DNA of 64,000 nt, taken from Anadara kagoshimensis. Its lineage: Eukaryota; Mollusca; Bivalvia; Arcoida; Arcidae. Shown here piece after piece: positions 3,112 through 62,402 of the stretch. The stretch is from assembly GCA_021292105.1 (NCBI GenBank), contig CM037864.1, positions 13,253,898-13,317,897 of the forward strand. Direction: 5' to 3'. The translations under genes and the position numbers were made by a program. Position 1 is the stretch's first letter, and each line of letters begins with the position of its first letter. The notes below the pieces were generated by a model, which worked only from the letters and a program-made list of their open reading frames with translations, made no database searches and was not told the DNA's origin.

Positions 3112-3425
3112 CTATCCATCCATCATATTCCATTCCCCTGTCACATTCTTTTCATCATGGTACAATGTGAAACAGCCTTTATTGATGCACAGAGGAACGT
3201 CACAAGTGTCGCACTTGTATGTCGTATAAACATGCCAGCCGGATTTAGTTTTTAACCTCTTTAGCTGACAATATAGGCATATTTTACGCTTATGATGTAA
3301 GGTATGCACGGCTTTGTGTGTACCCCCTCCTTCTCTCGACTCCCAAGCTGTGCTAAAAGTCATACCGACTTTATCACGAATTACTGGATGTTTCAGTGAC
3401 CTCACAGACGTTATTTGACCAAAAT
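3112..3425 (-). CDS. Alternative 3'-terminal exon, piggyBac-type zinc finger (most distal)
   Basis: The exon starts after a minus-strand acceptor TTTGCAG at about 3426-3432; the first two bases (AT) finish a split codon, and the frame stays open for 103 further codons to a stop at 3112. It encodes a cysteine-rich zinc-binding module with Cys at about residues 50/53, 72/75, 80 and 85 and His at 90. The loop reads RLKTKSGW and the core CDTCDVPLC then CFTLYH. The loop between the fifth and sixth Cys is the shortest of the set (four residues). The leader contains a GGG and basic stretch. It is the last exon of the array in transcription order. The 3' portion recurs as decayed copies at 2405-3110. 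A possible ATTAAA poly(A) signal lies just past the stop (3096-3101). Function as a DNA- or protein-binding C-terminus is inferred from the module only. Confidence 0.82.
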
Positions 3426-4319
3426 CTGCAAAGATAAACAAAATCAACAACCATATAATTCATAATTTTATTGAGGAATTCTAATACAAATAATATAATA
3501 CATTATCTAAATAAGTTCGTCTACTATTGGTATCACTCCGTTTGTGAAAGTGAAATAGTCTTTTTTTTCCATAAAAATCAAATAAACTTGAATAAAATGC
3601 GATGTTGACACAAGTTTTCAGTTAAGACTAGGAACAAGTAACTGAAAAATCTTTATTCAAGTTTATACTTTCTATGAAAAAACAAGCATTTCACTGTCAC
3701 AAACAGAGTGATTCCAATACAAAGTTATTACTAAAACTAAAAATCAACATCACACATTTTGTTTAGTTTTCAGGTTATTTTGTTCCTACATGTCATAAAA
3801 TTAATGGGTTCCACCATACATACTTTAGATTTACAATGCCTCATCAACTGTGTTCAACATGCTACACACACGCGTGTTACAAAAGTGGTTAACAGACTAC
3901 TGTAATTTCCAAATAAAGTATATTTACACCAGTTTGCACAAGTGTGCGTTACAAATATCGTAACAGGCTACTCTACAAAGAATCCATGGTTATTTTATTA
4001 CTAACAAATGAAACAACAGCAGTTACAACTAAATTTCTGTTTTAATTTAAATTCGTAATTTGCAAGTATATTTACACAATTGCATCCTGTATCGGCATTC
4101 TTTAGCAAAATCGATAAAGAGTCAACTTTCTAATAAAAAACTAACATCCGTACCCCTTTTAATTTCAATTTGTAATTTACAACGAAAGTATATTTACACG
4201 TATTAAAACACACGTGCGTGATACAAACTTCGTTTACAGACTAATGTACACAAATGCTCCAGGTCCTGGCTTTCTTTACCCAGGATCTATACAGACTGAA
4301 TTTCTTCTACTACCAAATT
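3426..4319. other. Intronic AT-rich sequence
   Basis: Poorly defined relatives of the 4320-6020 repeat appear from about 3840 onwards (TATATTTACACxxxTTTGCACA). I see no exon. Confidence 0.5.
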
Positions 4320-6480
4320 TATTAATGGCTTTACACTAACATTCAGTTCCCCTGTAACTTAAAATTGTAATTTGCAACAAAAGCATATATACACTAACTA
4401 CAATGGCCGTTAACAGGATGATGTCCAGACATGCAAAAGGTACTCAAATTCTTTACGTATGATCTAAACATAATTAATTCTACTGTAGATGGAACAAACA
4501 GCTTAAAATTAAAATTCGAACACCTTGTAATTTAAATTTGTTATTTGTAACTAAAGAGTATTTACTCTATTTGCAAACAACTGCATCAGGTACTGGCATT
4601 CTTAGCGTGAGAACTACACAGAGTCAATGTCTTCAACAACAAAAGGAACCAACGTCTAACATTAAAATCCAAACACCTTGAACTTTGCGAAGAATGTATA
4701 TTTACACTAATTTGAAAATGCTGTATACTAGTACAACTGCATCAGACACTGGTATTCCATAAGTAAGATCTATACAGAATCAATGTCTTATATTACACAA
4801 TGAAACAACGGCTTCACATTAAAATCCACAACCCTTGTAATTTAATTTTGTAATTAGTATATTTACATTATTTTTACAAGTGTGTGTTTTCAAAGAACTG
4901 CATCAGGAACTGCCATTCTTTAAGTTAGATCTACAGAATCAATGTCTTCTATTAAATGAAACAGCGTCTAACATTAAACTCGAATCATGTAACCATGTAA
5001 AATTTGAACTTTGCAACGAAAGTATATTTACATAAATGTGCACATATTGTACGCAACTGCATCAGACACTTGCATTTCTTAAGTAAGATCTATACAGAAT
5101 CAATGTCGTATACTACCCAATGGAACAACGGCTTCACAATAAAATCCACAACCCTTGTAATTCAAATTTGTAATTAGTATATTTACATTATTTGTACACG
5201 CGTGTTTTCAAACAACTGTATCAGGAACTGGCATTCTTTAAGTTAGATCTACAGAGAATCAATCTCTCCTATTAAATTAAACGTTTCGCATTAAAATCGA
5301 ATCGCGTAACCATGTCACTTACACTTGAACTTTGCAACGAAAGCATATTCACATTAGTTTGCACATGTCGTACACAACTGCATCAGATACTTGCATTTCT
5401 AAGTAAGATCTATATAGAATTTATGCCTTATTCTACCCAAATGAAACAACGGCGTCACATTAAAATCCATAACCCTTGTAATTTAATTTTTGTAACTAGT
5501 ATATTTACAATTTTTTTTACAAGTGTGTGTTTTCAAACAACTGCATCAGGAACTGGCATTCTTTAAGTTAGATCTACAGAGAATCAATGTCTTCTATTAA
5601 ATTAAACGTCTCGCATTAAAATGGAATCATGTAACCATGTAAAATTTGAATTTTGCAACGAAAGTATATTTCCATTAATTTGCACATATTGTAACTGCAT
5701 CAGATACTGGCATTTCTTAAGTAAGATCTATACAAAATCAATGTCTAATACTATCCAACGAAACAACGGCTTCACATTAAAATCCACAACCCTTGTAATT
5801 CAATTTTGTAACTAGTATATTTACATTATTTTTTACAAGTGTGTGTTTTCAAACAACTGCATCAGGAACTGTAATTATGTCACTTACACTTGAACTTTGC
5901 AACGAAAGCATATTCACATTAGTTTGCACATGTCGTACACAACAGCAACAGATACTTGCATTTCTAAGTAAGATCTATACAGAAATTTAAGTAAGATCTA
6001 TACAGAAATTAAGTCTTATACTAGCAGACGAAACAACGGCTTTTCATTAAAATCCATTCCCCCTTTTAAAATTTCAAGCTAAAGTATATTCACATGACTT
6101 TTCACACGTGTTACAATATCCGTTATAAGGTTGTTGTCCACACATGCATCAACTACTGCAATTCGAAATCAATGTCTTCTAGCAAAATGAAACAACGTCT
6201 TCACATTTAAATTCGACCATCTTGTAATTTCAATTTAAATTAAAAATTGCAACGAAATTATATTTAAATAACAATTTCATGTACATCAGCCACTGGCATT
6301 CTTCACGTAAGATATAATATCTTCTACTACCAAATGAAGCACCGTCTTCACATTAAAATCCAATCATTTTTTTTAATTAAAATTTGAAATTTGCGACGAA
6401 ATTATATTTACACTAATTTACACATTAGCATCAGGTCATGGCTTTCTTCACGCAAGATCTATACAGAATCAATTCCTTCT
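4320..6480. repeat. Tandem array with about 160-bp monomers and about 320-bp higher-order dimers
   Basis: The CATCAG(G/A)xACTGGCATTC box recurs at about 4740, 4901, 5060, 5220, 5381, 5544, 5698 and 5860. Alternate units share features: ACACTTGCATTTCTTAAGTAAG-like versions at 4740/5060/5381/5698 and GGAACTGGCATTCTTTAAGTTAG-like versions at 4901/5220/5544/5860. Alternate-unit spacing is 316-324 bp. Flanking units at 4320-4580 and 6020-6480 are more diverged. Confidence 0.8.
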
Positions 6481-6484
6481 ACTA

Positions 6485-6886: not shown

Positions 6887-7203
6887 TTAAGAAGTTCCGT
6901 TGGACGAATTGGTCTGTCCATCTCTTTTGATACCGCGATAGTAATTCTTAAGTTCTTGGTGGTAGTTGTCAAAACAGCCTCTCTCCACGATACAAAGCGG
7001 GACGTCACAAGCATTACACTTATACGTCGTATACACAAGCCAGCCTGATTTCGTTTTCGTCTTGTTGGCTTGGCAATGGACGCACATTTTCCGTTTACTT
7101 TCGGCCGTGTGTACAGGATAATGGCCCATCATTCTAAGAACCGGTGATGAGGACGATTCTGGGGTCTGTACTCTCGTCTGTGTAAAAGTCTGTCGTATTA
7201 GAT
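6887..7203 (-). CDS. Alternative 3'-terminal exon, piggyBac-type zinc finger
   Basis: The acceptor is TTCTTTCAG at 7204-7212. Two bases (AT) complete the split codon and the frame is then open through a Ser-rich leader (residues about 2-24, with four Ser in a row) that lies upstream of the first Met, so the exon is longer than a Met-initiated reading would suggest. Zinc ligands are Cys 41/44, 63/66, 71, 77 and His 82, with the loop KTKTKSGW and core CNACDVPLC. The protein matches the 3112 exon closely (TTYKC, CDVPLC), so these two are probably recent paralogues. The C-terminal tail is polar and charged. Fragments similar to its 3' end recur at 6485-6886, immediately past the stop. Confidence 0.82.
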
Positions 7204-11159: not shown

Positions 11160-11695
11160 TTACTCTGCATCTTTTTGTTGACTTTCGACTTTTGGATATT
11201 GAACCAAAACAGGTAATTTGAAACGGTCAGATGCCGTAGGTTCCATTGCACTTGAATCTCTAGCTCCTAAAGACGGTGCTGTTGTCAAAAGCGGCAATTT
11301 AAAATTGTCTGACGTCCGTTCTACGTTTCCGAAGTCCGATGATGCCGATGATGTTGCTAAGGATCCCATGGTCTCGGTTTGAGAAGACGGGTATATCTCC
11401 CCTGTACCTGTAACAAGATTTGACGGGTGTACCAGACCAGGGTTGCCAAATTGCATAAGGTGATACTCTTGGAAGCAATCCCGATCGGTCCCCCTTGTTC
11501 CGCAACACAACGCGATGTCACAAACGGAACATTTATGCCGTGACCGTATCTTATTTCCCGCTCGGGTCTTAGTCCGTCTCACTGCACACAACATGCACTT
11601 CTTCTGGCCTTTGATCCTTGCCACTCGGTGTTCTCTATAAGATTCGGAGTAAAAACCTTCCTTGCCATTGACTATCAGAGGGGTTGCAATTCTTT
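11160..11695 (-). CDS. Alternative 3'-terminal exon, piggyBac-type zinc finger with long Ser/Thr tail
   Basis: The acceptor is CCTTTCAG at 11696-11703; AA completes the split codon. This is the longest exon in the set, about 178 residues. Cys 34/37, 56/59, 64, 74 and His 79 form the module; the core is CSVCDIALC and the loop before CFQEYH is the longest seen (nine residues). About 100 residues of Ser/Thr/Pro-rich tail follow, in which a short motif (DNFKLPLL, then DRFKLPVL) occurs twice and could be a linear binding motif. Open reading continues upstream of the acceptor with a hydrophobic stretch that mimics a signal peptide; since every sister exon begins at this acceptor I treat that stretch as intron. 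A MITE ends about 50 bp past the stop. A TATAAA-like poly(A) variant is at about 11133. Confidence 0.82.
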
Positions 11696-14766: not shown

Positions 14767-15065
14767 TTACGAGCCTGGGTTTGGAAAAATGGCAGCAGGG
14801 TTAAACGGTAAACCACCGATGTCCATCAATCTGTGATACTCCTGGAAACAGTTCCTATCCGTGTCACTGCAACACAGTGGCACCTCACAGAGGGAACACT
14901 TCTGACGTGTTCTGACGTGGTATCCAGCAGCCGTTCTAGTCTTCCTCATGTTACAGATAACGCAGTAGCCTTGTTTAATCAACCGCTGTGCTTGGTGGAT
15001 TTTTAAATCGAGGGTTTGGTATTCCTCCTTTTGACGTGAAATTCTGCGAATGGTTGGCGGAAATT
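14767..15065 (-). CDS. Alternative 3'-terminal exon, piggyBac-type zinc finger
   Basis: The acceptor is CCTTTCAG at 15066-15073; AA completes the split codon and 27 codons lead into the module. There is no internal ATG before the zinc finger, which itself argues that the peptide is made only as a spliced C-terminus. Ligands are Cys 35/38, 57/60, 65, 73 and His 78; the loop reads KTRTAAGY and the core CSLCEVPLC, then CFQEYH. The leader is Arg/Gln/Lys-rich (residues about 6-28). The tail is short, Pro/Gly-rich and ends about 20 residues after the last ligand. It is closest in the CFQEYH region to the 11160 exon. I see no 3' tandem copies here. Confidence 0.82.
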
Positions 15066-19650: not shown

Positions 19651-19739
19651 ACTTTAGTAGTTGATGGTTTCAAATAATTTTACAAGTTTAGTCCAGTTAT
19701 CCAGTTCATCTGGGTTATTACCTTTCACTTGTATTGCAA

Positions 19740-20160
19740 AATAATTGTGAAACTCAACAAAGCAGTTTCTTCCAAAATCAAAGCAACAAAGCCACCGTGA
19801 CAATGCGCTACCACTTAAAATAAAATTTACCTGGAAAATCATTTTGCATTTGTTGTGCAAAATAATTATGAATCTCGTCAAAGCAGTTTCGTCCAGATTT
19901 CAGACTACAAATTTAAAGTGGTACCCTTAAATCAATTCAGCTGGGAAGATCGCTTTGCATTTGTTGTGCGAAATAGTTGTGAAACTCAACAAAGCAGTTT
20001 CGTCCTGATTTCAGACTACAAATTTAAAGTGGTACCCTTAAATCAATTCAGCTGGGAAGATGACTTTGCATTTGTTGTGCGAAATAGTTGTGAAACTCAA
20101 CAAAGCAGTTTCGTCCAGATTTCAGACTACAAAGTGGTACATTACACTGTCCACATTTCA
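19740..20160 (-). repeat. 111-bp tandem duplications of the 3' end of the 20048 exon
   Basis: The block GAAACTCAACAAAGCAGTTT occurs at 20092 (the functional exon), 19981 and, as GAATCTCGTCAAAGCAGTTT, at 19870, giving an exact 111-bp period. A more diverged fourth copy is at 19749. Each unit re-encodes the GRNCFVEFHNYF region and its stop. The three newer units are nearly identical, so the expansion is recent. Confidence 0.9.
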
Positions 20161-20316
20161 CCCTGGTATAGACCCACCAACCAGATTTAGTTTTAGTTCT
20201 CTTAGAGTGACAAACCACACAGATTTTACGTCCACCACTACCGACTTGTCTATGAAGTGATGAAGGATATGGTAAGCCTGTACCACTATCAATGTTCTGC
20301 AAACCCATCGTGTGTT
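20048..20316 (-). CDS. Alternative 3'-terminal exon, piggyBac-type zinc finger
   Basis: The acceptor is TCTTTCAG at 20317-20324, AA completes the split codon, and the exon encodes about 89 residues. Ligands are Cys 33/36, 55/58, 63, 71 and His 76, with the loop RTKTKSGWW and core CGQCNVPLC followed by CFVEFH. The leader contains a Gly-rich turn before the module (VGSGG). The tail is only 13 residues. The segment coding for the last two ligands and the stop is tandemly repeated downstream with a 111-bp period (19740-20160), so the true stop lies inside the first unit. The 33324 exon shares the RTKTxSGWWVxT loop and is a likely close paralogue. Confidence 0.82.
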
Positions 20317-21110: not shown

Positions 21111-22403
21111 TTGTGTAAACATAATTTTCTGGCCGTTTATATCAAGTGTCTTCTCTAGTATCCGATTGCCAAATTATTAAAACTAAGCAGTGTATAAAAT
21201 TAATCAGATTGGCAAATGGCGCCAGACATCTCAATGATATGGTTGTATATTTACAGAGGCTGTTCCATTAACTTAACATCGAGCGATGGTGCTGAGGCAA
21301 GAACTGTGGACATGGCAATAGATCTTTTGTATTTCATGTAGGCTTGCTAAAATAAAGTGGGTATATTGTATATTTCTTTGAAACAATTATTTAAAACACC
21401 GCTACTTGAACAAAGCAACACGGCACTCCCCCAAACACTCCTCTCCGGATTTTAGACACATTCTTGTAGCAAAACAGAAAAGGGCAAAATCACAGGTTGA
21501 AAACATCCTGAGAGACCTGAAAGTGTCAAAATTGAATTAACCTATTGCATTGCAATGGAGGTTTTAATACCCCATTCAAGGTTATTTTACTTACACCAGG
21601 GTGGCCAATTCCGGGATGGTATGGGAAATTAAAGACACCAGAGAGAGACTGTGAAACACTAACCATCCTTTGGCAAGCAAACTGACAAAACATCCTCAAA
21701 CATTTTCCATCCCATATTTAATGTTAATTAATAAGGAACCATATATTTATGGAATGATTACATAAATTTTTACAAGTTCTTTTGTTCTTGCTTTGTTTTA
21801 AACTTCCTTTGCTTGTTTTTTATATTTAATTATTATAATTATTATTATTATGAATAATAATATTATTATGTTCTATAGTCAAGTACATTGTTTATTGGTG
21901 ACAAAAATTTAAAATACTTTTTTTGTGTTCAGTCCTGAGGCTTGGTGTTTAACAGCAAACTTACTATAAGAAACACATCTAATCTCGTAAAATCAATCTG
22001 AAGGCGGTTATTTAAAGCTAAAAGCAGTAGGTTATTGTTTTCATATCTCGGTTAAAATCTGTAGTTAAAAATCAAAGCAGTGAAGTTTCTGGATGGCAGA
22101 GGAAATGCAATTACCAAAAGAAAACAAGTAAATTTGGTGTATAAGGATCCCCCGCGTCACGTTCTTTATTGCAATTATGTTCAAAGGGCAATAACTCCCA
22201 GGAAAATGAGCAAACCAACTCGGGTTAACGATATACGCATATCCTATGAATGTTGGAGCTTTGCAACAGTTCTTTGTAGTTTTGGAGAATTTGCGCAGAC
22301 AAGAATTTCAGGCGGACGGAACCTACTCCCTCTCTATATTCATATACAATGTATCTGAAAGTCCATAAATTTACTGACAATTTAAGATCTTCATATATAG
22401 CCA
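21111..22403. other. Intron, dispersed-repeat fragments only
   Basis: A segment at 22175-22270 (GGGCAATAACTCCCAGGAAA, GAGCAAACCAACTCGGGTTA) is shared with 56770-56890. A SINE-like scrap lies at 21600-21720. No exon seen. Confidence 0.5.
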
Positions 22404-22640
22404 AGCTAATTTTGAAAGAACAATTTTGTGATATTCAGTGAAGCAATTTCTTTCTGATTTAGGACTACACAATCGAACCAAACATTCTGAGCATGGGTAT
22501 CTGACTTTAACATTGAGTCCGGGCTTAGTCCTTCCTTTCGTTAGTTTGCAGAATAAACAAATGCCTTGTTTTGGATCCTGTCAATGGATCTGTGGACGCT
22601 ATCACGTTCCCATGTTTCCTCTTAAACATCTATGAAAGCA
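22404..22640 (-). pseudogene. Decayed duplicate of the 22797-23038 zinc-finger exon
   Basis: This stretch is a clear copy of the neighbouring exon, offset by about 400 bp. The zinc-module frame can still be followed, including CLFC, CSEC, LC and CFTEYH, but three changes disable it. The acceptor TTTCAG has become TTTCAT; a 17-bp net deletion between the leader and the module breaks the frame; and an extra A after the last His shifts the original stop. Pro replaces Pro/Arg-type conserved positions elsewhere (TKPG for TKSG, VRLC for VPLC). I read it as a recently dead exon. It could only be used if the nearby CATAG were spliced, which would meet an early stop. Confidence 0.8.
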
Positions 22641-22796: not shown

Positions 22797-23038
22797 CTAA
22801 TTTTTAAAGAACAATTTATGATATTCAGTGAAGCAATTTCTTTCTGATTTTGGACTACACAATGGAACCAAACATTCTGAACACTGGTGTCTGACTTTGA
22901 CATTGAGCCCGGACTTTGTTCTTCCCTTTGTTAGTTTGCAGAATACACAAATGCCTCGTTTTGGATTCTGGACAAGAACGTGTCCAGTCACCGGATCTGT
23001 AAATGCTATTATGTTCCCATGTTTCCTCTCAAACATCT
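22797..23038 (-). CDS. Alternative 3'-terminal exon, piggyBac-type zinc finger
   Basis: The acceptor is TGATTTCAG at 23039-23047; AG completes the split codon. About 80 residues are encoded, with Cys 31/34, 53/56, 61, 69 and His 74. The leader has the motif TDPVTGHVLVQNPKRG just before the first Cys, which is shared with the 25415 exon (TDPITGHSLVRNPKRG) and partly with the 31723 exon (NNPKRG), so these three form a subfamily. The loop is KGRTKSGLNV and the core CSECLVPLC. The tail is only five residues, so the module is essentially the C-terminus. A damaged second copy lies about 400 bp downstream (22404-22640). Confidence 0.83.
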
Positions 23039-25414: not shown

Positions 25415-25677
25415 TTATTCTTTTGGGGCACCAAACATTGCTTTATGGTACTCCAAAAAGCAGTTTCTATCAGAAAGTGGACTACACAAGGGAGTATCAC
25501 ACTCTTCACATTTATGTCGGACTTTAACCGTATATCCACATTTAGTCCTCCCTTGGGTTAGTCTACAATACAAGCACCCTCCACGCTTCGGGTTCCGAAC
25601 CAGACTGTGGCCTGTTATTGGGTCCGTGTATAAGACAATATCGCTAGCCTGTTGTGGTTTCAACTTGGGATCCAAAG
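25415..25677 (-). CDS. Alternative 3'-terminal exon, piggyBac-type zinc finger
   Basis: The acceptor is GCTTTCAG at 25678-25685; CT completes the split codon, so with a donor exon ending in G the junction residue would be Ala rather than the usual Glu. About 87 residues follow, with Cys 35/38, 57/60, 65, 73 and His 78. An additional Cys sits in the loop (RTKCGY), where sister exons have Ser. The core is CEECDTPLC, with Thr in place of the usual Val. The leader matches the 22797 exon. The tail is AMFGAPKE; the DNA for this tail recurs in degenerate form downstream at 25150-25420. Confidence 0.83.
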
Positions 25678-26602: not shown

Positions 26603-27105
26603 TCACTGGTGGTGGTGCATGTGCAGTGTCAGCTGTATTTTCTGTGGATAAGCTTTCCCACATATCTCACATCGGTAAGGGCATTCTCCTGTGTGGAGCC
26701 TCATGTGAATCTTCAAACTTCCTTTGTGTGCAAATGTTTTCTTACAAATGTCACATTCAAAACCATCACAATTCTGACCTCCCATTCCAAATGGATCTGA
26801 ACTTTGACCTTTCATTCCAAACTGATTTGAACTTTGACCTCTGATCCCATGTTGACTGTCACCCCAGTAAGGTGATGCTGTTCTGGCTTTGTGTGACTGT
26901 GATATTTCAGAAGACTCGCCAACTGTATTCTCATTTCCTACATAACTAATGTTGCTGTTCTCAAACTCGTCCGAGGATAAACTAGACCCATGATGTCTTT
27001 GTCTTGATAGAAAGGTTGATGTATCCACGGCAACCAATGGCTGAGAATACCCGTCTCCGACAGCTTCCACTGTTTCTGGATACCTATATTCTTTTTTACA
27101 TTTAT
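26603..27105 (-). CDS. Alternative 3'-terminal exon, two classical C2H2 zinc fingers
   Basis: The acceptor is ATTACAG at 27106-27112 and AT completes the split codon, phase as in all other exons. It encodes about 167 residues. Residues 1-115 are polar and Ser-rich and include a degenerate 10-11-residue repeat (GQSSNQFGMK, GQSSDPFGMG, then GQNCDGF). Two fingers follow: CDIC...H-x3-H at about 118-138 and CEIC...H at about 146-166, joined by HTGECPY, close to the classical TGEKP linker. This differs from the other eleven C2H2 exons, which use an H-x-PP linker and a KFRW second finger, so it is a separate lineage or a different capture. The exon sits among piggyBac-type exons. A TATAAA-like signal is about 30 bp past the stop. 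The 31-bp minisatellite begins about 105 bp upstream of the acceptor, in the intron. Confidence 0.82.
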
Positions 27106-27209
27106 CTGTAATATAAATAACAAACCTTCTCTTTATTTCCAAATTATTTTTATGACGTGTGTGTATTTTGTGTAACAATGTTTATTATGTTTGCATATAT
27201 AAATCTAAT

Positions 27210-28264
27210 ATTACTTCACCAATTTGACAAGGATTAAGATATTACTTCACCAATTTGACAGGGATTCAGATATTACTTCACCAATTTGACAGGGATTAAG
27301 ATATTACTTCACCAATTGGACAGGGATTCAGATATTACTTCACCAATTGGACAGGGATTCAGATATTACTTCACCAATTGGACAGGGATTCAGATATTAC
27401 TTCACCAATTGGACAGGGATTCAGATATTACTTCACCAATTTGACAGGGATTAAGATATTACTTCACCAATTTGACAGGGATTAAGATATTACTTCACCA
27501 ATTGGACAGGGATTAAGGTATTACTTCACCAATTGGACAGGGATTCAGATATTACTTCACCAACTGGACAGGGATTCAGATATTACTTCACCAATTGGAC
27601 AGGGATTAAGGTATTACTTCACCAATTGGACAGGGATTAAGATATTACTTCACCAATTTGACAGGGATTAAGATATTACTTCACCAATTGGACAGGGATT
27701 AAGGTATTACTTCACCAATTGGACAGGGATTAAGATATTACTTCACCAATTAAACAGGGATTCAGATATTACTACACCAATTGGACAGGGATTAAGGTAT
27801 TACTTCACCAATTGGACAGGGATTAAGATATTACTTCACCAATTAAACAGGGATTCAGATATTACTTCACCAATTGGACAGGGATTAAGGTATTACTTCA
27901 CCAATTGGACAGGGATTAAGGTATTACTTCACCAATTGGACAGGGATTAAGATATTACTTCACCAATTTGACAGGGATTAAGATATTACTTCACCAATTG
28001 GACAGGGATTAAGATATTACTTCACCAATTGGACAGGGATTAAGATATTACTTCACCAATTGGACAGGGATTAAGGTATTACTTCAATAATTGGACAGGG
28101 ATTAAGATATTACTTCACCAATTGGACAGGGATTAAGACATTACTTCACCAATTGGACAGGGATTAAGGTATTACTTCAATAATTGGACAGGGATTTAGA
28201 TATTACTTCACTAATTGGACAGGGATTAAGACATTACTTCACCAATTGGACAGGGATTAAGATA
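27210..28264. repeat. 31-bp minisatellite, about 34 copies
   Basis: Unit ATTACTTCACCAATTGGACA plus GGGATTAAGAT, strictly 31 bp with point variants (TTGGACA/TTGACA/TAAACA, TTCAGAT/TTAAGGT). There are no spacers, so it is not a CRISPR array. It lies in the intron about 105 bp upstream of the 26603 exon's acceptor. Confidence 0.97.
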
Positions 28265-31722: not shown

Positions 31723-31979
31723 TTACTTAGTAATAAAGGAGGTTTCTCCTAAGACTAACTTATGGTAGTCAATAAAACAACTCCGGCCTTGCCGAGGACT
31801 ACACAATGGTACCTCACACAGAGAACATTTACATCTGGGTATAACAAAATTTCCTGACTTAGTTTTGATGTTGTTTATTCGACACATGGCACATGGACCA
31901 CGTTTGGGGTTGTTGGTAATAACATGGTCTCCGTATTGTGTGGACAATGTAAGCTCCCTTGCTCTGGTAGGTATAATTT
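31723..31979 (-). CDS. Alternative 3'-terminal exon, piggyBac-type zinc finger
   Basis: The acceptor is CCTTTCAG at 31980-31987; AA completes the split codon. About 85 residues are encoded with Cys 30/33, 52/55, 60, 68 and His 73. The loop reads IKTKSGNFV, the core CSLCEVPLC then CFIDYH, and an extra Cys precedes the third ligand (RCKC). The NNPKRG motif before the first Cys links it to the 22797 and 25415 exons. Open reading runs about 60 codons upstream of the acceptor, but this part has the composition of intron and I exclude it. A repeat array (30960-31680) follows the stop but is not obviously derived from this exon. Confidence 0.82.
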
Positions 31980-32829: not shown

Positions 32830-33330
32830 AACACTGAATATCAACCACTGATCCTCAATTAATTTGAATTCTCACTACTGAATATCCATCACTGATCATC
32901 TTAAAGTATACGATTAATTTCATAGCGCACTAAATTTGAGTTCTCACTACTAAATATCCATCACTGATTCTCTTAAGTATATGATTAATTTCATAGCACA
33001 CTAAATTTGAGTTCTCACTACTGAATATCCATCACCGATTCTCTTAAGTATACGATTAATTTCATAGCACACTAAATTTGAATTCTCACTACTGAATATC
33101 CATCACTGATCATCTTAAAGTATACGATTAATTTCATAGCACACTAAATTTGAATTCTCACTACTGAATATCCATCACTGATCATCTTAAAGTATACGAT
33201 TAATTTCATAGCACACTAAATTTGAATTCTCACTACTGAATATCCATCACTGATCATCTTAAAGTATATGAATAAATTTTATAACACACTATATGAATTT
33301 GAATTCTCACTACTGAATATCCATCACCGA
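32830..33330 (-). repeat. 71-72-bp tandem array running into the 33324 exon
   Basis: The box ACTGAATATCCATCACTGAT recurs with AATATCC at 32881, 32953, 33024, 33095, 33167, 33239 and 33316. The last unit (CATCACCGATCCTCCTGTTT) contains the exon's stop codon and final codons. Confidence 0.92.
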
Positions 33331-33625
33331 TCCTCCTGTTTATACACTTCTGCTGGAAGATATTGCAAGGGCAGCGATTCACGATTCTCAAATATCATTT
33401 TATGGTACATGTAAAAACAGTTTCGGCATTTCTGACTACACAAGGGTACATCACAAACTGAACATTTTAAACTTGTCTTGACCCACCAGCCGGACCGTGT
33501 TTTAGTCCGACTAAGAGAACAAGCCAAACAGTGTTTCCGTCCCTCCAAGCTGACTAGTTTATGCTCTCGGATTGTGTTTATGGCCATTGCCGTACCGCCA
33601 ACATTTTCAATGGTCTGAACAGATT
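33324..33625 (-). CDS. Alternative 3'-terminal exon, piggyBac-type zinc finger
   Basis: The acceptor is GCTTTCAG at 33626-33633, AA completes the split codon, and about 100 residues are encoded. Ligands are Cys 33/36, 55/58, 63, 70 and His 75, with the loop RTKTRSGWW and core CSVCDVPLC. The loop before CFYMYH is six residues and carries an extra Cys (QKCRNC), giving a choice of ligand. The tail of about 25 residues ends in a charged stretch. The last codons and the stop lie inside the final unit of a 71-72-bp tandem array that continues downstream (32830-33330), so the array seems to have grown from the exon end, or the exon end was replaced by it. Confidence 0.83.
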
Positions 33626-37481: not shown

Positions 37482-37747
37482 TCACTTATACCATTGCCAC
37501 AACTTTTCCTCGTTTCCACACAGCCTCACATGATTATTATAGGTCATTTTCCATCTAAATTTTTGCCCACATTTAGAACACACATATTTAGGTGGATCAT
37601 GTTTAGCACTGTGCTGTCTTAGGTATGATAACTTAGTAAAATTCTTTCCACAAACTTTACAACAAAATGACGCAGTGTTGTCAGTGGCTTGAGTTTCATT
37701 AGGATCTCGAATTACACCAAGTGTACTGGGTCCAAATCCTTGTCGTT
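37482..37747 (-). CDS. Alternative 3'-terminal exon, C2H2 + C2HC finger pair (duplicate copy 1)
   Basis: The acceptor is ATTTTTCAG at 37748-37756 and AA completes the split codon. Of about 88 residues, finger 1 spans 30-50 (Cys 30/33, His 46/50) and finger 2 spans 57-77 (Cys 57/60, His 73, Cys 77; a C2HC finger). The linker is DPPKYV and finger 2 has the family signature CGQKFRW. It belongs to a four-member duplicated set with the exons at 39376, 40626 and 41866. The leader is nearly the same as that of the 39376 exon, but the C-terminal tail is different and shorter (GNEEKLWQWYK against a 24-residue tail in the others). The duplicated block around it also carries non-coding repeats. Confidence 0.84.
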
Positions 37748-39375: not shown

Positions 39376-39683
39376 TTACTGAGGAAAAAAATGATAATCA
39401 TTTTGTGAGGACATTTGTGATGGTTCCGGCCAAATTCTTTCCCTATTGCCATTACACAATCTGACATGATTATTATAGGTGATTCTCCATCTAAATTTAA
39501 GTCCACATTTAGAACACACATATTTAGGTGGATTATGTTTAGCACTGTGTTGTCTTAGGTATGATAACTTAGTAAAATTCTTTCCACAAACTTTACAACA
39601 AAATGACGCAGTGCTGTCAGTGGCTTGAGTTTCATTAGGATTCCGAGTAACGCCAAGTTTACTGGGTCCAAATCCTTGTCGTT
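39376..39683 (-). CDS. Alternative 3'-terminal exon, C2H2 + C2HC finger pair (duplicate copy 2)
   Basis: This exon has no usable early Met and is easy to miss. From the acceptor TTTTTCAG at 39684-39691, with AA completing the split codon, I can read 101 uninterrupted codons to TAA at 39376-39378. Finger 1 has Cys 30/33 and His 46/50; finger 2 (CGLKFRW) has Cys 57/60, His 73 and Cys 77. The tail contains RERIWPEPSQMSSQ and is nearly identical to those of the 40626 and 41866 exons. Exon length (308 bp) is the same in all three. The leader resembles copy 1. The absence of frameshifts in four paralogues argues for selection on the reading frame. Confidence 0.83.
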
Positions 39684-40625: not shown

Positions 40626-40933
40626 TTACTGAGGAAAAAAATGATAATGATCTTGTGAGGACATTTGTGATGGTTCCGGCCAAATTCTTTCCCTATTGCC
40701 ATTACACAATCTGACATGATTATTATAGGTGATTTTCCATCTAAATTTAAGTCCACATTTAGAACACGCATATTTAGGTGGATTATGTTTAGCACTGTGC
40801 TGTCTTAGGTATGAAAACTTAGTAAAATTCTTCCCACAAACTTTACAACAAAATGACGCAGTGTTGTCAGTGGTTTGAGTTTCATTATGATCTCGAATCA
40901 CGCCAAGTGTACTTGTTCCAAATCCTTGTGGTT
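40626..40933 (-). CDS. Alternative 3'-terminal exon, C2H2 + C2HC finger pair (duplicate copy 3)
   Basis: The acceptor is ATTTCAG at 40934-40940, with AA completing the split codon. About 102 residues are encoded. Finger 1 (CKVCGKNF) and finger 2 (CGLKFRWK) occupy the same positions as in copy 2, and the tail is nearly the same. Differences from copy 2 are scattered substitutions (for example TKFSYL for TKLSYL, and YAC for YVC), with no indels. The copy lies 1,250 bp from copy 2. The leader begins in frame before any Met, again consistent with use as a spliced terminal exon. Confidence 0.84.
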
Positions 40934-41865: not shown

Positions 41866-42173
41866 TTACTGAGGAGAGTAATGGTAATGGTTTTGTGAGG
41901 ACATTTGTGATGGTTCTGGCCAAATTCTTTCCCTATTGCCATTACACAATCTGACATGATTATTATAGGTGATTTTCCATCTAAATTTGAGTCCACATTT
42001 AGAACACACATATTTGGGTGGATCATGTTTAGCACTGTGTTGCTTGAGATATTTCAATCTTGTAAAACACTTCCCACAAACTTTACAACAAAAAGTTGCA
42101 GTGCTGTCAGAGGCTAAGGATTCCTCGGGGACTGTGCCGCTAAATGTATGCCCATATCCATGACCTTGTTGCT
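41866..42173 (-). CDS. Alternative 3'-terminal exon, C2H2 + C2HC finger pair (duplicate copy 4, most diverged)
   Basis: The acceptor is TTTTTCAG at 42174-42181; AG completes the split codon. The exon is 308 bp, the same length as copies 2 and 3, at a spacing of 1,240 bp from copy 3. Finger 1 is CKVCGKCFTRLKYLKQH, differing in the helix from the TK(L/F)SYLRQH of the other three copies, while finger 2 (CGLKFRWK) and the tail are almost unchanged. The leader (QQGHGYGHTFSG) is clearly different. So sequence change is concentrated in the leader and in the finger 1 recognition helix. Confidence 0.84.
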
Positions 42174-45916: not shown

Positions 45917-46209
45917 TTAAGATTTCAATGTGAACACTTTAGAAACAGTGTGATAAATATTAAAGCAATCCCTTCCAGATTTGTGGCTACACAGGGGTAT
46001 ATTGCAAACAGAACACTTGAAGCTGGTCAGAACCGGCCAGCCTCCTTTAGTTGTTTGGCCATGGATCTGACACGATTTACATTGTTTTCTTCCACCATTT
46101 GAATCAATAGGGATCAAGCTGTGTTCTGTAGAGCTGGGTGGGTTTATTGTGGTGTAACATGCAGATGTGTCACTCATGCCAGGATTTCTTGATAGCTGTG
46201 GAGCCCGAG
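45917..46209 (-). CDS. Alternative 3'-terminal exon, piggyBac-type zinc finger (most proximal of this class)
   Basis: The acceptor is TCCTTTCAG at 46210-46218 and CT completes the split codon. The first ten codons (RAPQLSRNPG) precede the first Met. Ligands are Cys 44/47, 66/69, 74, 82 and His 87, with the core CSVCNIPLC and CFNIYH. The basic loop is weaker than in sister exons (QTTKGGW in place of RTKSGW). It is the only exon of this class lying among the C2H2 exons (between those at 42.2 and 47.9 kb). About 97 residues are encoded and the tail ends nine residues after the last ligand. Confidence 0.82.
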
Positions 46210-47633: not shown

Positions 47634-47893
47634 TCAGATAAACTGTTGTGCTTTGCATGTTTGCACATGTCTTATGTGTGACATTTTCCACCTAAATCTA
47701 CGTCCGCAAGCATTACACTGTAGTTTAGGGGGACTGTGAAGTCGTCTGTGCTGACTTAGGTTCTTGGCTCTGGCAAATGTTTTGCCGCAAACATTACAAT
47801 GATATGGTTCTTGTTTCAGAGCTGGAAGAGGAAGTAGACTAGATGATGATGATGTAGCGTTGGTGAAGAGGTATGATCCTTGATCGCCAAATT
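47634..47893 (-). CDS. Alternative 3'-terminal exon, C2H2 + C2HC finger pair
   Basis: The acceptor is ATTTTCAG at 47894-47901; AA completes the split codon. About 86 residues are encoded. The leader has a run of five Ser. Finger 1 is CNVCGKTFARAKNLSQH (Cys 33/36) and finger 2 is CNACGRRFRWKMSH with Cys as fourth ligand (HVQTC). The linker is HSPPKLQ, the family pattern H-x-PP. The exon is followed by about 830 bp of decayed copies of its finger 2 DNA (46800-47640). The tail is five residues. Confidence 0.84.
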
Positions 47894-49599: not shown

Positions 49600-49945
49600 A
49601 CTGAAGCTGCAGTGGCCCATGAAATTTCAGATGTTCTCGTTATAAAATTTAGAAAATGGGATTTTTACATTTTTACATTTTTTTATGTCATCTATGTGTA
49701 ATTTCCCATTAAAATTTGTTGTCATAAGTGTTACACTAGGGCCATGACGGCTGGCGTACGTTGCATTTTAAAACCGAGAAAATTTTTATTTTCTGTTCAT
49801 CACAAAATGCGAGAAACAGTCCTCTACAGCTTTTCTTATGTCTATGTGAGATTTCCCATAAGAATTTTTTCACACACATGTTACAATGATACCATGGAGG
49901 CTAGCATAACTTTATATGGAGTTGATTTTCTACACTGAGAAAAAA
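49600..49945 (-). repeat. Decayed finger 2 copies downstream of the 49946 exon
   Basis: The block AGATTTCCCAT(A/T)A(G/A)AATTTT occurs at about 49701 and 49851, and its exon counterpart (ACATTTCCCATCGGAATTTT) at about 50018. Neighbouring pieces CACAxxTGTTACAxTGA and ATGGAGGCT follow in order. Spacing is about 150 and 168 bp. Confidence 0.8.
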
Positions 49946-50220
49946 TTAAAATGTCGAAAATCCATCGCCATATGCCAGAAATGGCCCTTTGCAGCTTTTC
50001 ATATGGCGTCTGTGAGACATTTCCCATCGGAATTTTTTGCCACAAGTGTTACACTTGAGCTGAGGAGGCTCGTGTAATTTCAAATGCTGAGTTAAATACT
50101 GAGCTCGTTGGAAAGTCTTTCCACATTTTCCACAGGAATGTATCATGCTTTCTGCATCTCCTTCTAGACCCTCTTCCGCGTAGTAGTGATGGCCAGAGTC
50201 AAGATGATGTCCATATTTTT
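49946..50220 (-). CDS. Alternative 3'-terminal exon, C2H2 + C2HC finger pair
   Basis: The acceptor is TTATTTCAG at 50221-50229; AA completes the split codon. About 91 residues are encoded. The leader is His- and acid-rich. Finger 1 is CGKCGKTFQRAQYLTQH (Cys 30/33), finger 2 is CNTCGKKFRWEMSHRRH with Cys as the last ligand (MKSC). The linker is EPPQLK. Finger 2 shares RWxMSH with the 47634 exon and RWLMSY with 51286, so these three appear to form a subgroup. Two decayed copies of the finger 2 DNA follow the stop (49600-49945). Confidence 0.84.
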
Positions 50221-51285: not shown

Positions 51286-51563
51286 TTAATCATTCGGATT
51301 TTGACCAGGAATCCATTGCATAAATGGTGATTTACATATCTTAGTATGCCGTTTATAGGACATAAGCCATCGGAATTTTTTTCCACACATTTTACATTGA
51401 AACTTGGGCGGTTTGTGAAGCTGCATATGTTGACTTAGATAGTCTCTTCTGGGAAAAGATTTTCCACATTCCACACAACTATATGACACGTTAGCAGAGG
51501 CCACAAATTCTGGTGTTGGTACTACATCACTAAGATGGCCGCTTTTGTGGAACAACATGTTTT
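51286..51563 (-). CDS. Alternative 3'-terminal exon, C2H2 + C2HC finger pair
   Basis: The acceptor is GTTTCAG at 51564-51570; AA completes the split codon. About 92 residues are encoded, with finger 1 CVECGKSFPRRDYLSQH (Cys 30/33) and finger 2 CKMCGKKFRWLMSYKRH with Cys as last ligand. The linker is KPPKFQ. The tail is about 18 residues and ends in a polar stretch. The helix residues of finger 1 (PRRDYLSQ) differ from the QRAQYLTQ of the 49946 exon, which would be expected to change target preference if finger 1 reads DNA. I see no 3' repeat array here. Confidence 0.84.
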
Positions 51564-52796: not shown

Positions 52797-52860
52797 TGAT
52801 TGAATGGGGTTTTAAGTCCCAGTCAAGAATATTTCACATTTTTTTATCAAGACATCTCAT
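52797..52860. repeat. SINE-body fragment overlapping the end of the 52847 exon
   Basis: GGGGTTTTAAGTCCCAGTCA followed by AGAATATTTCAC and ATCAAGACATC matches the start of the SINE body at about 48808-48850 (TAACGTCCCAGTCAAGAATA, ATCGAGACATCGCC). Confidence 0.65.
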
Positions 52861-53109
52861 CCTGTTGTCCACCACATTTCCTGGTATGTTTAAGAAGTGA
52901 TTGTCTCCACCTAAACCTCCTACCACAAAACTGACAGAACAGCTGTGGGGGGTCATGTAATTTTAAATGATCCTTCAAATATCTGGCTTGTTGGAATGTT
53001 TTCCCACACTGAGGACAAGCCGTCAAAGATGTCCCGTCGTTCTGACTCTCCGCCGACATTTGTGTTTCAAAGGAATCCATCAATAAAGTGTCTTGATAAT
53101 TGTGCATTT
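52847..53109 (-). CDS. Alternative 3'-terminal exon, C2H2 + C2HC finger pair
   Basis: The acceptor is TTTTTTCAG at 53110-53118 and AA completes the split codon. About 87 residues: an acidic, polar leader, then finger 1 CPQCGKTFQQARYLKDH (Cys 32/35) and finger 2 CQFCGRRFRWRQSLLKH with Cys as last ligand (TRKC). The linker is DPPQLF. The last few codons and the TGA overlap a fragment of a SINE-like dispersed repeat (52797-52860), so the present stop seems to be repeat-derived. ARYLKDH is shared with the 56429 exon and ARYLKEH with 62209, marking a subgroup. Confidence 0.84.
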
Positions 53110-56428: not shown

Positions 56429-56640
56429 TTACATAATATTGGGGCACTTTTCCATGTGTCTAGAATACGTCCTTTTCCATTTGAACTTTTCTCCACATGC
56501 TTTACACTCAAACTGAGGCGGATTATGTATGATCCGGATATGATCTTTGAGATAGCGCGCTACATCAAACGATTTGTGGCACAAATGACACTTATACTCG
56601 CCCTCCTTCTGAAAGCAGACATACGGTTTTCCATGCAACT
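56429..56640 (-). CDS. Alternative 3'-terminal exon, C2H2 + C2HC finger pair (short)
   Basis: The acceptor is TTTTTTCAG at 56641-56649; AG completes the split codon. About 70 residues are encoded, with a leader of only 17 residues, among the shortest in the array. Finger 1 is CHLCHKSFDVARYLKDH with an H-x4-H ending (HIRIIH), finger 2 CKACGEKFKWKRTYSRH with Cys as last ligand. The linker is NPPQFE. It has KFKW where others have KFRW. The tail is four residues. The flanking 3' DNA contains a dispersed repeat also found inverted at 30160-30345. Confidence 0.84.
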
Positions 56641-56649
56641 CTGAAAAAA

Positions 56650-58029: not shown

Positions 58030-58034
58030 GAACA

Positions 58035-58375
58035 TTGTAATACACAAGTCTTTTGTTCTGTCATCAAATTTTAGAACCAAGGGTTTAATGTTCTGTCATC
58101 AAATTTTAGGACCAAGGTTTAATGTTCTGTCATCAAATTTTAGGACCAAATGTTCTGTCGTCAAATTTTAGGGCCAAGGGTTTCATGTTCTGTCGTCAAA
58201 TTTTAGGACCAAGGGTTAAATGTTTTGTCATCAAATTTTAGGACCAAATGTTCTGTCCTCAAATTTTAGGACCAAGGGTTTAATGTTCTGTCGTCAAATT
58301 TTAGGACCAAGGGTTTAATGTTGTCAAATTTTAGGACCAAGGGTTTAATGTTCTGTCGTCAAATTTAAGAATCCA
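58035..58375. repeat. Short tandem repeat, about 25-37-bp units
   Basis: TTCTGTC(A/G)TCAAATTTTAGGACC followed by AAGGGTTTAATG is repeated about ten times with some units shortened. Confidence 0.93.
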
Positions 58376-59432: not shown

Positions 59433-59922
59433 GTCTCTAGTTTCTGCCATCTGATATTTTGATGGCAATATCTTCCCATTGTTCAAACAAATGAACTTGA
59501 AATCAAACGTTCATTTTGCAGTCTGCCAAAGTCTCTAGTTTCTGCCATCTCATATTTTGATGGCAATATCTTCTCATTTTTCAAACAAATGAACTTGAAA
59601 TCAAACATTCATTTTGCAGTCTGCCAAAGTCTCTAGTTTCTGCCATCTAATATTTTGATGGCAATATCTTCCCATTGTTCAAACAAATGAACTTGAAATC
59701 AAACATTCATTTTGCAGTCTGCCAAAGTCTCTAGTTTTTGCCATCTGATATTTTGATGGCAATATCTTCCAATTGTTCAAACAAATGAACTTGAAATCAA
59801 ACATTTATTTTGCAGTCTGCCAAAGTCTCTAGTTTTTGCCATCTGATATTTTAATGGCAATATCTTCTCATTGTTCAAACAAATGAACTTGAAATCAAAC
59901 ATTCATTTTTCACAGTCTGCCT
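59433..59922 (-). repeat. 98-bp tandem array, five copies, partly zinc-finger-derived
   Basis: GTCTCTAGTTT recurs at 59433, 59531, 59629, 59727 and 59825. Each unit contains GGCAATATCTTCCCATTGTT then CAAAC. This resembles GGAGATATCTCCATTGTTCA in the 60708 exon, which encodes FEQWRYL of finger 1. Confidence 0.85.
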
Positions 59923-60020
59923 CAAGTAATGCCTCTTTACATACCCTTTTACATGTACCCAAACCATTTACATTCCAGATTTTCAAGAAAATATTGAATC
60001 CAAAGCATTATTAATAATCA

Positions 60021-60520
60021 ACTTAAAACAACAACTTTTTCAGGTATCACCTCTTGAAAATTTTCTCCATGGTGAGAATTATTATCAATAATCGACTTAA
60101 AACAACAACTTTTTCAGGTATCACCTCTTGAAAATTTTCTCCATGGTGAGAATTATTATCAATAATCGACTTAAAACAACAACTTTTTCAGGTATCACCT
60201 CTTGAAAATTTTCTCCATGGTGAGAATTATTATCAATAATCGACTTAAAACAACAACTTTTTAAGGTATCACCTCTTGAAAATTTTCTCCATGGTGAGAA
60301 TTATTATCAATAATCGACTTAAAACAACAACTTTTTAAGGTATCACCTCTTGAAAATTTTCTCCATGGTGAGAATTATTATCAATAATCGACTTAAAACA
60401 ACAACTTTTTAAGGTATCACCTCTTGAAAATTTTCTCCATGGTGAGAATTATTATCAATAATCGACTTAAAACAACAACTTTTTAAGGTATCACCTCTAG
60501 AAAATTTTCTCCATGGTGAC
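60021..60520 (-). repeat. 74-bp tandem array, seven copies, partly zinc-finger-derived
   Basis: ACTTAAAACAACAACTTTTT recurs at 60021 and then every 74 bp to 60465. Each unit has TATCACCTCTTGAAAATTTT then CTCCATGGTGA, similar in order to GTCTGCCTCCAGCGGAATTT then CTCTCCACACTGA of finger 2 in the 60708 exon. The units are nearly identical, so expansion is recent. Confidence 0.88.
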
Positions 60521-60579
60521 GACATAGATATTGTCTGTTAGATATAGAGTAAGTTTGTTCAGGGAGAAATCTCAGTTGT

Positions 60580-60707
60580 TCAAACAGTTATGGACTTTCA
60601 AATAGTGATTTTTCAAGGTCTGCCTCATTAGATTCCACTTTCCACACTGATGACATTAGATAGTCATGGAGGTTTGTTAGGGAGAAATCTCCATTGTTCA
60701 AACTGTT
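60580..60707 (-). repeat. Decayed copy of the 3' half of the 60708 exon
   Basis: TGGACTTTCAAATAGTGATT then TTTCAAGGTCTGCCTC, then TTCCACTTTCCACACTGATG and GGGAGAAATCTCCATTGTTC, reproduce in order the stop, finger 2 and finger 1 blocks of the neighbouring exon with many substitutions and a deletion. Confidence 0.85.
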
Positions 60708-60928
60708 TCAATCATAATTATGGACTTTCAAACAGTGATTTTTCAAGGTCTGCCTCCAGCGGAATTTCTCTCCACACTGATTACATGTGTACTGTGGTGG
60801 ATTATGTCGTTTGACATGTTCGCGGAGATATCTCCATTGTTCAAACGATTTACCGCAGACTTTACAAATAATTCCTCCGTGAGATTGCTCCGAGTTGTCC
60901 ATCGGGATTGTAGGGATATTCCACATCT
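60708..60928 (-). CDS. Alternative 3'-terminal exon, two C2H2 fingers
   Basis: The acceptor is ATTTTTCAG at 60929-60937; AG completes the split codon. About 73 residues. Finger 1 is CKVCGKSFEQWRYLREH (Cys 22/25) and finger 2 CNQCGEKFRWRQTLKNH, ending H-x4-H (HCLKVH), so finger 2 is a true C2H2 rather than C2HC. The linker is NPPQYT. The 62209 exon would have the same H-x4-H ending if its frame were intact. The exon is followed by three kinds of tandem array, parts of which look derived from its finger DNA (59433-60707). Confidence 0.84.
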
Positions 60929-60937
60929 CTGAAAAAT

Positions 60938-61975
60938 AAAGGAACAACTGTCTAAAACTTATTGTCAGTAATCGGCTCCAATGATTGCGTTTTTCAAAAA
61001 TGTTTAAACTCCATACAGTTTTTTAGGGACTTAAAATACATGCATTATACGAAAAAGAAATTTGTAACTGAAAAACAATTACTTTGACAACAGTCACTGC
61101 AAACTTGACACAATATCAATTAACAACAGACACAGCCAACAAGAAATATTAGTTGATTTGAACTAATAAATATAAGTTTCCAATATTTTCAATCCTCCAA
61201 TTTAAAACATGAGAATCGACAGAACCGATGGATGCTCCTGAATAAAAGCTAGTTGTAAAAGGCTATTTCCCAATTCAAAAATATTTTTGTTTAAATAAAA
61301 TTTTGCAAAGGGCAATAACTCTTGAGTTATATAAAATAGATTTATGATTCGTGTGCACTGCATTCCGCCACCTATGACGTCTTATGCTACTACTACTCTT
61401 AAATGTTTTGAGTTATGCTCCACACAAAATGATGACGGACAGACACATGCATAGGTTGGGCAGACAAAACAGCAACTATAGGCTCTCCCTTTGAGCATAA
61501 AAATGTAATGGCAATGAATACAGATTACATATAACATACTAATGGTAATGAACCCTAATTATTACATCATGGAAATATGAAATTAAATCCACATAACTTC
61601 CACTACTGAATTCTACAAATACCATCTTCTACCAACTGGATATATTCCATACCAAGCAATGAACAAACCATTTCCCAGTGTTCAAAATAGGTCAAAATAC
61701 TGCCCCAGACCTTATTTTTATCATTTCATCATTTTCTATTGTGGTATATAGAAGACTATTGATGAGGTAACCAGTCCTTCCTAATGTTACCAGACTTGGG
61801 ACTGTTTTTTCAAACACTACATTTCCATATATCCATTAGTTTTCAACACACAAGTTAAGCAAACCGAGTAAAATGTAGAAATATATCTCCATATAACCAC
61901 ATTTTTTTTATATTTTCAATATTTTCGATTTAAGAGTCTATTGCAATTTCTGTGCAAGTCTGAATTTTCTTTCAA
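60938..61975. other. Intron, nothing recognised
   Basis: AT-rich sequence without exon or named repeat. Confidence 0.45.
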
Positions 61976-62161
61976 GTCGATTTTTTTCTTTCAAATGTAC
62001 TGAATTTACCCTTCAGTCCTGCTCACCATTGAAATTTTTACCCACACACAACACTGGTATTTAAAATACCTAAAATAATTTTAGGGGACTGATGCTTTTT
62101 AAGTGTCAAGTTAAGAGTCTCTTCTAAGTCTTCATTTTTTTTCTTTTGTCTACTGAAAGTG
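61976..62161 (-). repeat. Decayed partial copy of the frameshifted exon
   Basis: CCCTTCAGTCCTGCTCACCA (about 62009), ACCCACACACAACACTGGTA and GGGGACTGATGCTTTTTAAG follow the same order as TCGCTTCAGTCCTGCTCGCC, CCCCACACACGACGCAGTGG and GGGGGCTGATGCTGTTTTAA in the exon. Confidence 0.8.
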
Positions 62162-62402
62162 TTAATACATATTTTGGTTTTTGCCATGAATTCTAGCTTC
62201 ATGTCGCTTCAGTCCTGCTCGCCAGCGAATTTTTCCCCACACACGACGCAGTGGTATTTAGGGGGCTGATGCTGTTTTAAGTGCTCCTTCAAATAACGGG
62301 CCTGTTCGAATGTTTTACCGCAGTAAGCACATGTTTTCTGGACATCAATATCAGTTTGACCATAATCATAATTAGTGACCATCACCTTGTAACTCTGCGA
62401 TT
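62162..62402 (-). pseudogene. Alternative 3'-terminal exon, C2H2 finger pair, one-base frameshift in finger 2
   Basis: The acceptor is AATTTTTCAG at 62403-62412 and AA completes the split codon. The frame runs through finger 1, CAYCGKTFEQARYLKEH (Cys 25/28), the linker QPPKYH and the start of finger 2, CVVCGEKF. It then leaves the family consensus and stops at 62209. At 62225-62228 the plus strand has CAGCGA where the 60708 exon has CAGCGGA, so one base is missing. Past that point the other frame continues with RW, a His pair spaced H-x4-H as in the 60708 exon, and TAA at 62162. I therefore see a single-base deletion that removes finger 2, either a real lesion or an assembly error. The exon is the first of the array in transcription order. 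Confidence 0.75.

Follow-up and report, generated by a model that had tools for sequence, protein, structure and literature searches.

The 64,000-nucleotide stretch analysed here (the window; positions 13253898-13317897 of contig C8 in a genome assembly of 1.115 Gb) carries an array of zinc-finger coding blocks. Between positions 3112 and 62402 lie 22 usable blocks, every one on the minus strand, behind a splice acceptor and closed by its own stop, just where a prediction made from the sequence alone had placed them (Table 1). Reading 200 kb past the high end of the window and 40 kb below its low end shows that the array continues on both sides, so that it spans about 300 kb and, counting relics, about 89 blocks, which lie behind two BTB units, A and B. 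The array that the original prediction described, of about 59 kb and 22 exons, is real, but its size was understated, the window being a slice of locus A. That locus holds about 67 blocks (57 in the window and the upstream stretch, 6 below the window, an exon with a BEN domain, and three farther down that are known from a family search alone), and locus B holds 22. The window is very probably the 3′ middle of a BTB transcription-factor locus with alternative terminal exons, in which one BTB 5′ part would be spliced to one of dozens of ends.

The proposed 5′ part lies outside the window, upstream of the array and on the same strand, where the prediction had suggested a search for a BTB/POZ exon; both a BTB exon (PF00651, E 7.4e-11) and an acidic exon are present. 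Within a unit, exon 1 encodes the start of the BTB domain, exon 2 its remainder and a long Ser/Pro-rich linker, and exon 3 a very acidic segment (net charge -19 over 96 residues in unit B). In window numbering, unit A occupies 124.3-120.6 kb and unit B, behind it, 247.1-239.9 kb; three more units (C, D and E) lie about 26 Mb away. Close copies of exons 2 and 3 are paired at seven places, all on C8: at these five units and at A′ and B′, which repeat A and B. The search for these copies also gave three distant BTB genes with 30-39% identity. Exons 1 and 2 meet in phase 0, and exons 2 and 3 share a codon as two bases plus one where the junction is readable (A′, B and D). The exon 3 donor, ..AAG/GTAGG, was read in five units (A, A′, B, C and D) and in each ends in G at phase 1, as had been supposed of a shared donor exon. 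The usual start codon of unit B is out of frame, with an in-frame ATG a few codons further on. The closest solved relatives of the BTB domain are MIZ1/BCL6 (E 4e-14) and BACH1.

The acceptors of the array match this donor. They were ranked with a simple, home-made score, the best acceptor upstream of each domain being taken, and the predicted phase is that in which two acceptor-side bases complete a split codon. The top-scoring acceptor has this phase in 21 of the 22 window blocks; the exception is block 20048, in which the right-phase acceptor ranks second (9.9 versus 11.0). When the 200 kb upstream of the window are included, the blocks number 79, all of them on the minus strand, and the best acceptor has the predicted phase in 73 of them, or in 71 of 74 once five blocks labelled as fragments by the script's pattern are set aside; among these five, two relics and block 66554 (a tie) have another phase. 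The final scan excludes an AG beside the first finger of block 51286, which, if counted, changes the best phase there. Zinc-finger-less open reading frames of the same stretch, used as a control, show the phase in 53 of 145 cases, whereas out of sample it recurred in 6/6 blocks in the 40 kb below the window and in 8/8 blocks in 9.6 kb of the paralogous unit D. No P value is given, since blocks that arose by tandem duplication are not independent observations. With a G-ending donor, the predicted junction residues of the window blocks (Glu 17, Asp 3, Ala 2) are reproduced, provided that acceptor 31979 (the best-scoring) is taken for block 31723 and 47893 for block 47634. The latter is in the right phase and scores below 47821, likewise in the right phase; the scoring rule applied alone yields Glu 16, Asp 3, Ala 2 and Val 1.

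The blocks had been described as fingers of one sort, a description that does not hold, since several domain types are present and 10 of the 22 window blocks are zinc domains of the piggyBac type. A Pfam scan of 20 window blocks assigned ten to PF13842 (DDE_Tnp_1-like zinc finger) and ten to C2H2 fingers; the other two (40626 and 62209) align with the finger pairs. By finger type, the window holds nine C2H2+C2HC pairs, a C2H2 pair (60708), two canonical fingers (26603) and a shortened block (62209). The commonest block type is the cysteine-rich domain of piggyBac transposase (zf-Tnp_2, PF13842), accompanied by C2H2 pairs, four-finger C2H2 blocks and one BEN domain. Membership of PF13842 rests on the profile match together with eight zinc ligands, blocks 11160 and 14767 falling slightly under the curated cut-off. 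A profile of the zf-Tnp_2 blocks compared with solved proteins gave one match at E <=0.1, the piggyBat transposase (E 0.0026). The structure predicted for zf-Tnp_2 block 33324 has a mean predicted local distance difference test score of 74, with 45 of 99 residues at 90 or above, and in a fold search with this model the piggyBat transposase supplied the first two matches (probability 0.98 and 0.97), which are weak by E value (0.065 and 0.079), no fold match reaching 0.001. A predicted structure of a C2H2 pair has a predicted template modelling score of 0.37.

Throughout the 57 zf-Tnp_2 domains of a tree set, the eight zinc ligands (two His, six Cys) are kept and the domain is basic, with a median charge of +8; because the set was chosen by the six Cys and the last His, with broken blocks excluded, the selection leaves only the first His and the charge as independent observations. 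The available text on PiggyMac describes a cross-brace domain with two His and six Cys ligands and contrasts the basic piggyBac DNA-binding domain with the acidic, histone-binding PiggyMac domain (PMC8086355). The DDE catalytic core (PF13843) was represented by 0 of 126 scored matches inside the clusters, with 116 of 432 candidates scored, so that a decayed core could escape. FLYWCH was absent from the Pfam results of the 26 array proteins scanned, in which the best family was zf-Tnp_2, C2H2 or BEN. The BEN-domain exon (PF10523, E 6e-7), which has a right-phase acceptor, is the array exon nearest to the BTB exon in locus A. Elsewhere in the genome, ten BEN-domain matches of equal score (37.9 bits) sit in a 175-amino-acid frame on several chromosomes (C17:50081892, C18:15225487, C14:66585015 and others), some within tens of kilobases of piggyBac matches; they may represent a BEN-carrying mobile element.

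The association of array and BTB unit extends across the genome. At least 148 zf-Tnp_2 matches were found (150 of 195 candidates scored); 112 of them are on C8, every one 3′ of a BTB unit and on its strand (A 16, B 17, A′ 17, B′ 18, C 14, D 17 and E 13). Units C and D stand head to head with diverging arrays; strand therefore goes with the BTB unit rather than the chromosome. Some 780-796 kb from A and B lies a second copy of both and of their arrays, A′ and B′ (clusters at 13.19-13.50 Mb and 13.97-14.29 Mb). Of 33 zf-Tnp_2 matches in the first cluster, 25 have an equal-score partner in the second, and where the surroundings of A and A′ align, identity is 95-99%. Because many BTB matches of the assembly likewise come in equal-score pairs, the second cluster is more likely a second haplotype left in the assembly than a true duplication. 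Each cluster copy contains one frame-disturbed BTB unit (A in the first, B′ in the second) whose counterpart is open. Per presumed haploid genome, five BTB units are followed by about 135 array blocks (89 + 44 + 2, relics included), of which most of the last 46 were not read. The 21 best matches of the C2H2-pair type are confined to the two clusters; the four-finger type occurs in both and twice at unit C, between the BTB unit and the zf-Tnp_2 exons. In a zf-Tnp_2 tree with good support at only 12 of its 54 inner branches, two groups mix units A, B and D (support 96/92 and 87/82); together with the four-finger matches at unit C, this suggests that the exon types arose before the units diverged. 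Between locus A and the locus B array there is also a minus-strand frame of 323 amino acids with DUF3504 and a sub-cut-off QRICH1 match (L013:5121-6089), and between loci A and B, also on the minus strand, are frames judged from their translations to be reverse-transcriptase-like (L012:4429-5788).

Comparisons between copies bear on whether these exons are maintained. Among 36 pairs of paralogous exons at least 50% alike, the synonymous rate (dS) is unsaturated in 16, all with a ratio of nonsynonymous to synonymous rates (dN/dS) of 0.14-0.71; certain exons enter more than one pair, and one of those compared, 88393, is half of a broken exon. Over 416 codons, exon 2 of A is separated from that of A′ by 2 nonsynonymous and 11 synonymous differences (dN 0.002, dS 0.039), and four zf-Tnp_2 exons compared between the locus copies carry 2 nonsynonymous and 5 synonymous differences over 429 codons, in surrounding DNA that is 96-97% identical. 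The numbers are small but all point in the same direction, giving signs of purifying selection on the exons.

From the array, its phases, the BTB units and their donors, the co-occurrence of units and zinc exons and these signs of selection, all of which are read in the sequence, we infer that the exons are spliced with one terminal exon per mRNA and that the products bind DNA and dimerise. A shared 5′ part (exons 1-3), with an acidic exon 3 ending in G at phase 1, would precede a long tandem array in which each exon offers a phase-matched acceptor, a single basic module that binds zinc (in one case a BEN domain instead) and a stop. Exon 3 would be joined to a single array exon in each transcript, so that the proteins would combine a constant dimerisation domain with one of dozens of DNA-binding ends, and the arrays would have grown by tandem duplication, the whole unit being duplicated to five. 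The earlier proposal of a BTB-type 5′ part joined to alternative zinc-finger C-termini gains support from the BTB exon and donor phase found outside the window. An acidic exon 3 with basic ends would fit a regulator in which the half that contacts protein stays constant and the half that contacts DNA changes.

Several observations weigh against this proposal. Three of the 74 blocks score best for a different phase, dS is saturated and uninformative on selection in 20 of the 36 exon pairs, and a test for poly(A) signals downstream of the stops was null (49 of 79 blocks versus 57% in controls). Unit A has one base fewer than A′ in the BTB exon, which breaks its frame in the assembly while A′ is open, and in unit B′ the exon 2 frame is shorter and exon 3 was split in the search. 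On reading, 9 of the 79 blocks were judged to be relics, half blocks or broken (19657, 22374, 49739, 62212, 73306, 88188, 88385, 194934 and 219244). Three of these (62212, 73306 and 219244) have an unbroken-frame match at the equivalent site of the second copy, and a lone break in an exon that is otherwise open and has an unbroken counterpart looks like an assembly error or an allele.

The same exons and proteins could arise by trans-splicing, if the array exons had promoters of their own and their transcripts were attached to a BTB pre-mRNA made separately. From the BTB exon to the farthest match is 188 kb in A and 199 kb in A′, long for a single pre-mRNA, and the accessible parts of two papers report trans-splicing for mod(mdg4) and lola (PMC11426971, PMC4667647). 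However, nine Drosophila mod(mdg4) isoforms join exons that lie on opposite strands (PMC4667647, as far as its available text goes), unlike the array here, in which all 112 C8 zf-Tnp_2 matches share the strand of their unit. Splicing is for that reason probably in cis, and we regard the trans-splicing alternative as unlikely. Slightly less probable still is that A and B are not separate, transcripts from B running past a dead BTB in A so that one BTB serves about 89 blocks. The position of A, 3′ of B on the same strand and in the same phase, would allow this, as would the frame break in the assembled A, but A′ is unbroken, A and A′ are strongly constrained, and each unit has its own array directly 3′.

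It is very improbable that the blocks represent piggyBac copies or remnants of dead exons with no common 5′ part: the main domain is indeed transposase-derived and some blocks are broken, but the lack of any scored catalytic core in the clusters, the single acceptor phase, the constraint on the exons and their co-occurrence with BTB units all speak against it. Live piggyBac copies were rejected because no core was scored in the clusters among the candidates examined. Independent single-exon zinc-finger genes were likewise rejected, given that no block needs a start codon, that one phase prevails and that the blocks are linked to BTB units.

The favoured reading of one BTB 5′ part with alternative ends most likely describes a locus that operates in the manner of lola and mod(mdg4) yet differs from them in its DNA-binding domains, its larger number of exons and its place outside the arthropods. 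FLYWCH, the recurrent zinc domain of mod(mdg4), is of transposon origin. As in that gene, a BTB part precedes many alternative 3′ ends sharing one recurrent zinc domain; the differences are that this domain is of piggyBac type and that each unit keeps to one strand, in contrast to both strands and trans-splicing in mod(mdg4). Isoforms of mod(mdg4) number 31 in Drosophila and 9 to 41 in four other insects, according to the part of PMC4667647 available. In lola of Drosophila a BTB 5′ part is likewise joined to alternative terminal exons, mostly C2H2, and finger pairs also occur in the present array. The accessible text of PMC11426971 gives lola a TTK-type BTB and 20 isoforms, 17 with C2H2 fingers, and reports TTK-type BTBs, mod(mdg4) included, from arthropods only. 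Here, by contrast, the solved BTB relatives are MIZ1/BCL6 and BACH1, most ends are of piggyBac type and locus A alone has about 67 blocks. The 60 of 76 matches to solved BTB structures that were listed are ZBTB, BCL6, BACH, kelch-type, myoneurin and similar proteins, none tramtrack-group by name, with no TTK profile used. Because FLYWCH is missing from the 26 proteins scanned and the BTB is nearest to MIZ1/BCL6 and BACH1, the locus is not presented as an orthologue of either gene, and orthology to mod(mdg4) in particular was rejected on the former ground.

With the piggyBac cysteine-rich domain itself (piggyBat 9c0f, PiggyMac) the zf-Tnp_2 exons share the eight ligands, the nearest profile match and the first fold match, but unlike in the transposases no catalytic core was detected nearby and the domain is multiplied as exons of a BTB gene. 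The human CSB-PGBD3 also joins piggyBac-derived sequence to a host gene. It acts as an alternative terminal exon and is a single element with a whole transposase, unlike the array described here. CSB-PGBD3 is named among transposon-domain fusions in the available text of PMC12062965; as far as their accessible parts go, neither this survey nor one of transposon-derived regulators (PMC10027918) mentions a piggyBac-BTB array, and oyster BTB clusters are described as clustered separate genes (PMC12111275). Among the papers listed by literature searches, judged by titles and abstract openings, none describes such a locus outside arthropods; most subscription journals and all preprints fall outside this coverage.

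The host is probably a bivalve. Bivalves are rich in C1q, and the genome gave 625 C1q candidates, of which 150 were scored and 150 lay above the cut-off. The insect-cuticle domain Chitin_bind_4 had no genome candidate, a weak negative given controls without that family. The earlier suggestion of a mollusc fits the very large C1q set and, weakly, this absence. Loci with one BTB and dozens of DNA-binding ends are known from insects; if confirmed, the same design would have arisen far from them, at greater size and with its repeated part taken from the DNA-binding module of a transposase, and one gene could yield dozens of different DNA-binding proteins. Five units in one genome would offer a natural experiment on array growth, decay and splice-partner choice, and would bear on how transposon domains turn into regulators. 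Mammalian KRAB zinc-finger genes silence repeated DNA with a renewal of targets, and it is conceivable, though rather improbable, that BTB repressors with captured piggyBac DNA-binding domains form a similar host defence or identity system that recognises transposon ends or other repeats and silences them, its targets renewed by exon duplication; the five units and about 135 blocks would then be a single-family DNA-recognition repertoire.

Table 1. Predicted terminal exons and fragments in the window
Feature	Position	Strand	Junction residue	Remarks
zf-Tnp_2 terminal exon	3112..3425	-	D	PF13842 E 2e-11; acceptor 3425
zf-Tnp_2 terminal exon	6887..7203	-	D	PF13842 E 7e-12; acceptor 7203
zf-Tnp_2 terminal exon	11160..11695	-	E	21.8 bits, slightly below cut-off 24
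zf-Tnp_2 terminal exon	14767..15065	-	E	21.2 bits, slightly below cut-off 24
Relic fragment	19654..19899	-		Not counted among the 22 usable blocks
zf-Tnp_2 terminal exon	20048..20316	-	E	PF13842 E 1.4e-7; right-phase acceptor second by score
Relic fragment of zf-Tnp_2 exon	22371..22580	-		Without good acceptor
zf-Tnp_2 terminal exon	22797..23038	-	E	Pfam match
zf-Tnp_2 terminal exon	25415..25677	-	A	Pfam match
Terminal exon with two canonical C2H2 fingers	26603..27105	-	D	PF00096 E 4.8e-12
zf-Tnp_2 terminal exon	31723..31979	-	E	Pfam match
zf-Tnp_2 terminal exon	33324..33625	-	E	Pfam match; structure predicted
C2H2+C2HC pair terminal exon	37482..37747	-	E	Pfam
C2H2+C2HC pair terminal exon, tandem duplicate	39376..39683	-	E	Pfam
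C2H2+C2HC pair terminal exon, tandem duplicate	40626..40933	-	E	Alignment, no Pfam scan
C2H2+C2HC pair terminal exon, tandem duplicate	41866..42173	-	E	Pfam
zf-Tnp_2 terminal exon	45917..46209	-	A	PF13842 E 4e-8
C2H2+C2HC pair terminal exon	47634..47893	-	E	Same-phase acceptor 47821 scores higher
Relic fragment	49736..49900	-		Not counted among the 22 usable blocks
C2H2+C2HC pair terminal exon	49946..50220	-	E	zf-C2H2 22.2 bits, below cut-off 25.2
C2H2+C2HC pair terminal exon	51286..51563	-	E	Pfam
C2H2+C2HC pair terminal exon	52847..53109	-	E	Pfam
C2H2+C2HC pair terminal exon	56429..56640	-	E	Pfam
C2H2 pair terminal exon, same kind as the C2H2+C2HC pairs	60708..60928	-	E	Pfam
Finger-pair terminal exon shortened by frame break in second finger	62209..62402	-	E	Alignment, no Pfam scan; unbroken match at equivalent site of second locus copy

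Smaller features lie among these exons. A 111-bp unit present in 2.7 copies (19833-20133) overlaps and repeats the 3′ end of exon 20048-20316, and a 31-bp minisatellite of 34 copies with 94% matches occupies 27208-28264. Directly 3′ of better preserved exons, at 60590-60655 and about 62010-62090, stand decayed finger copies, which are traces of exon birth and death.

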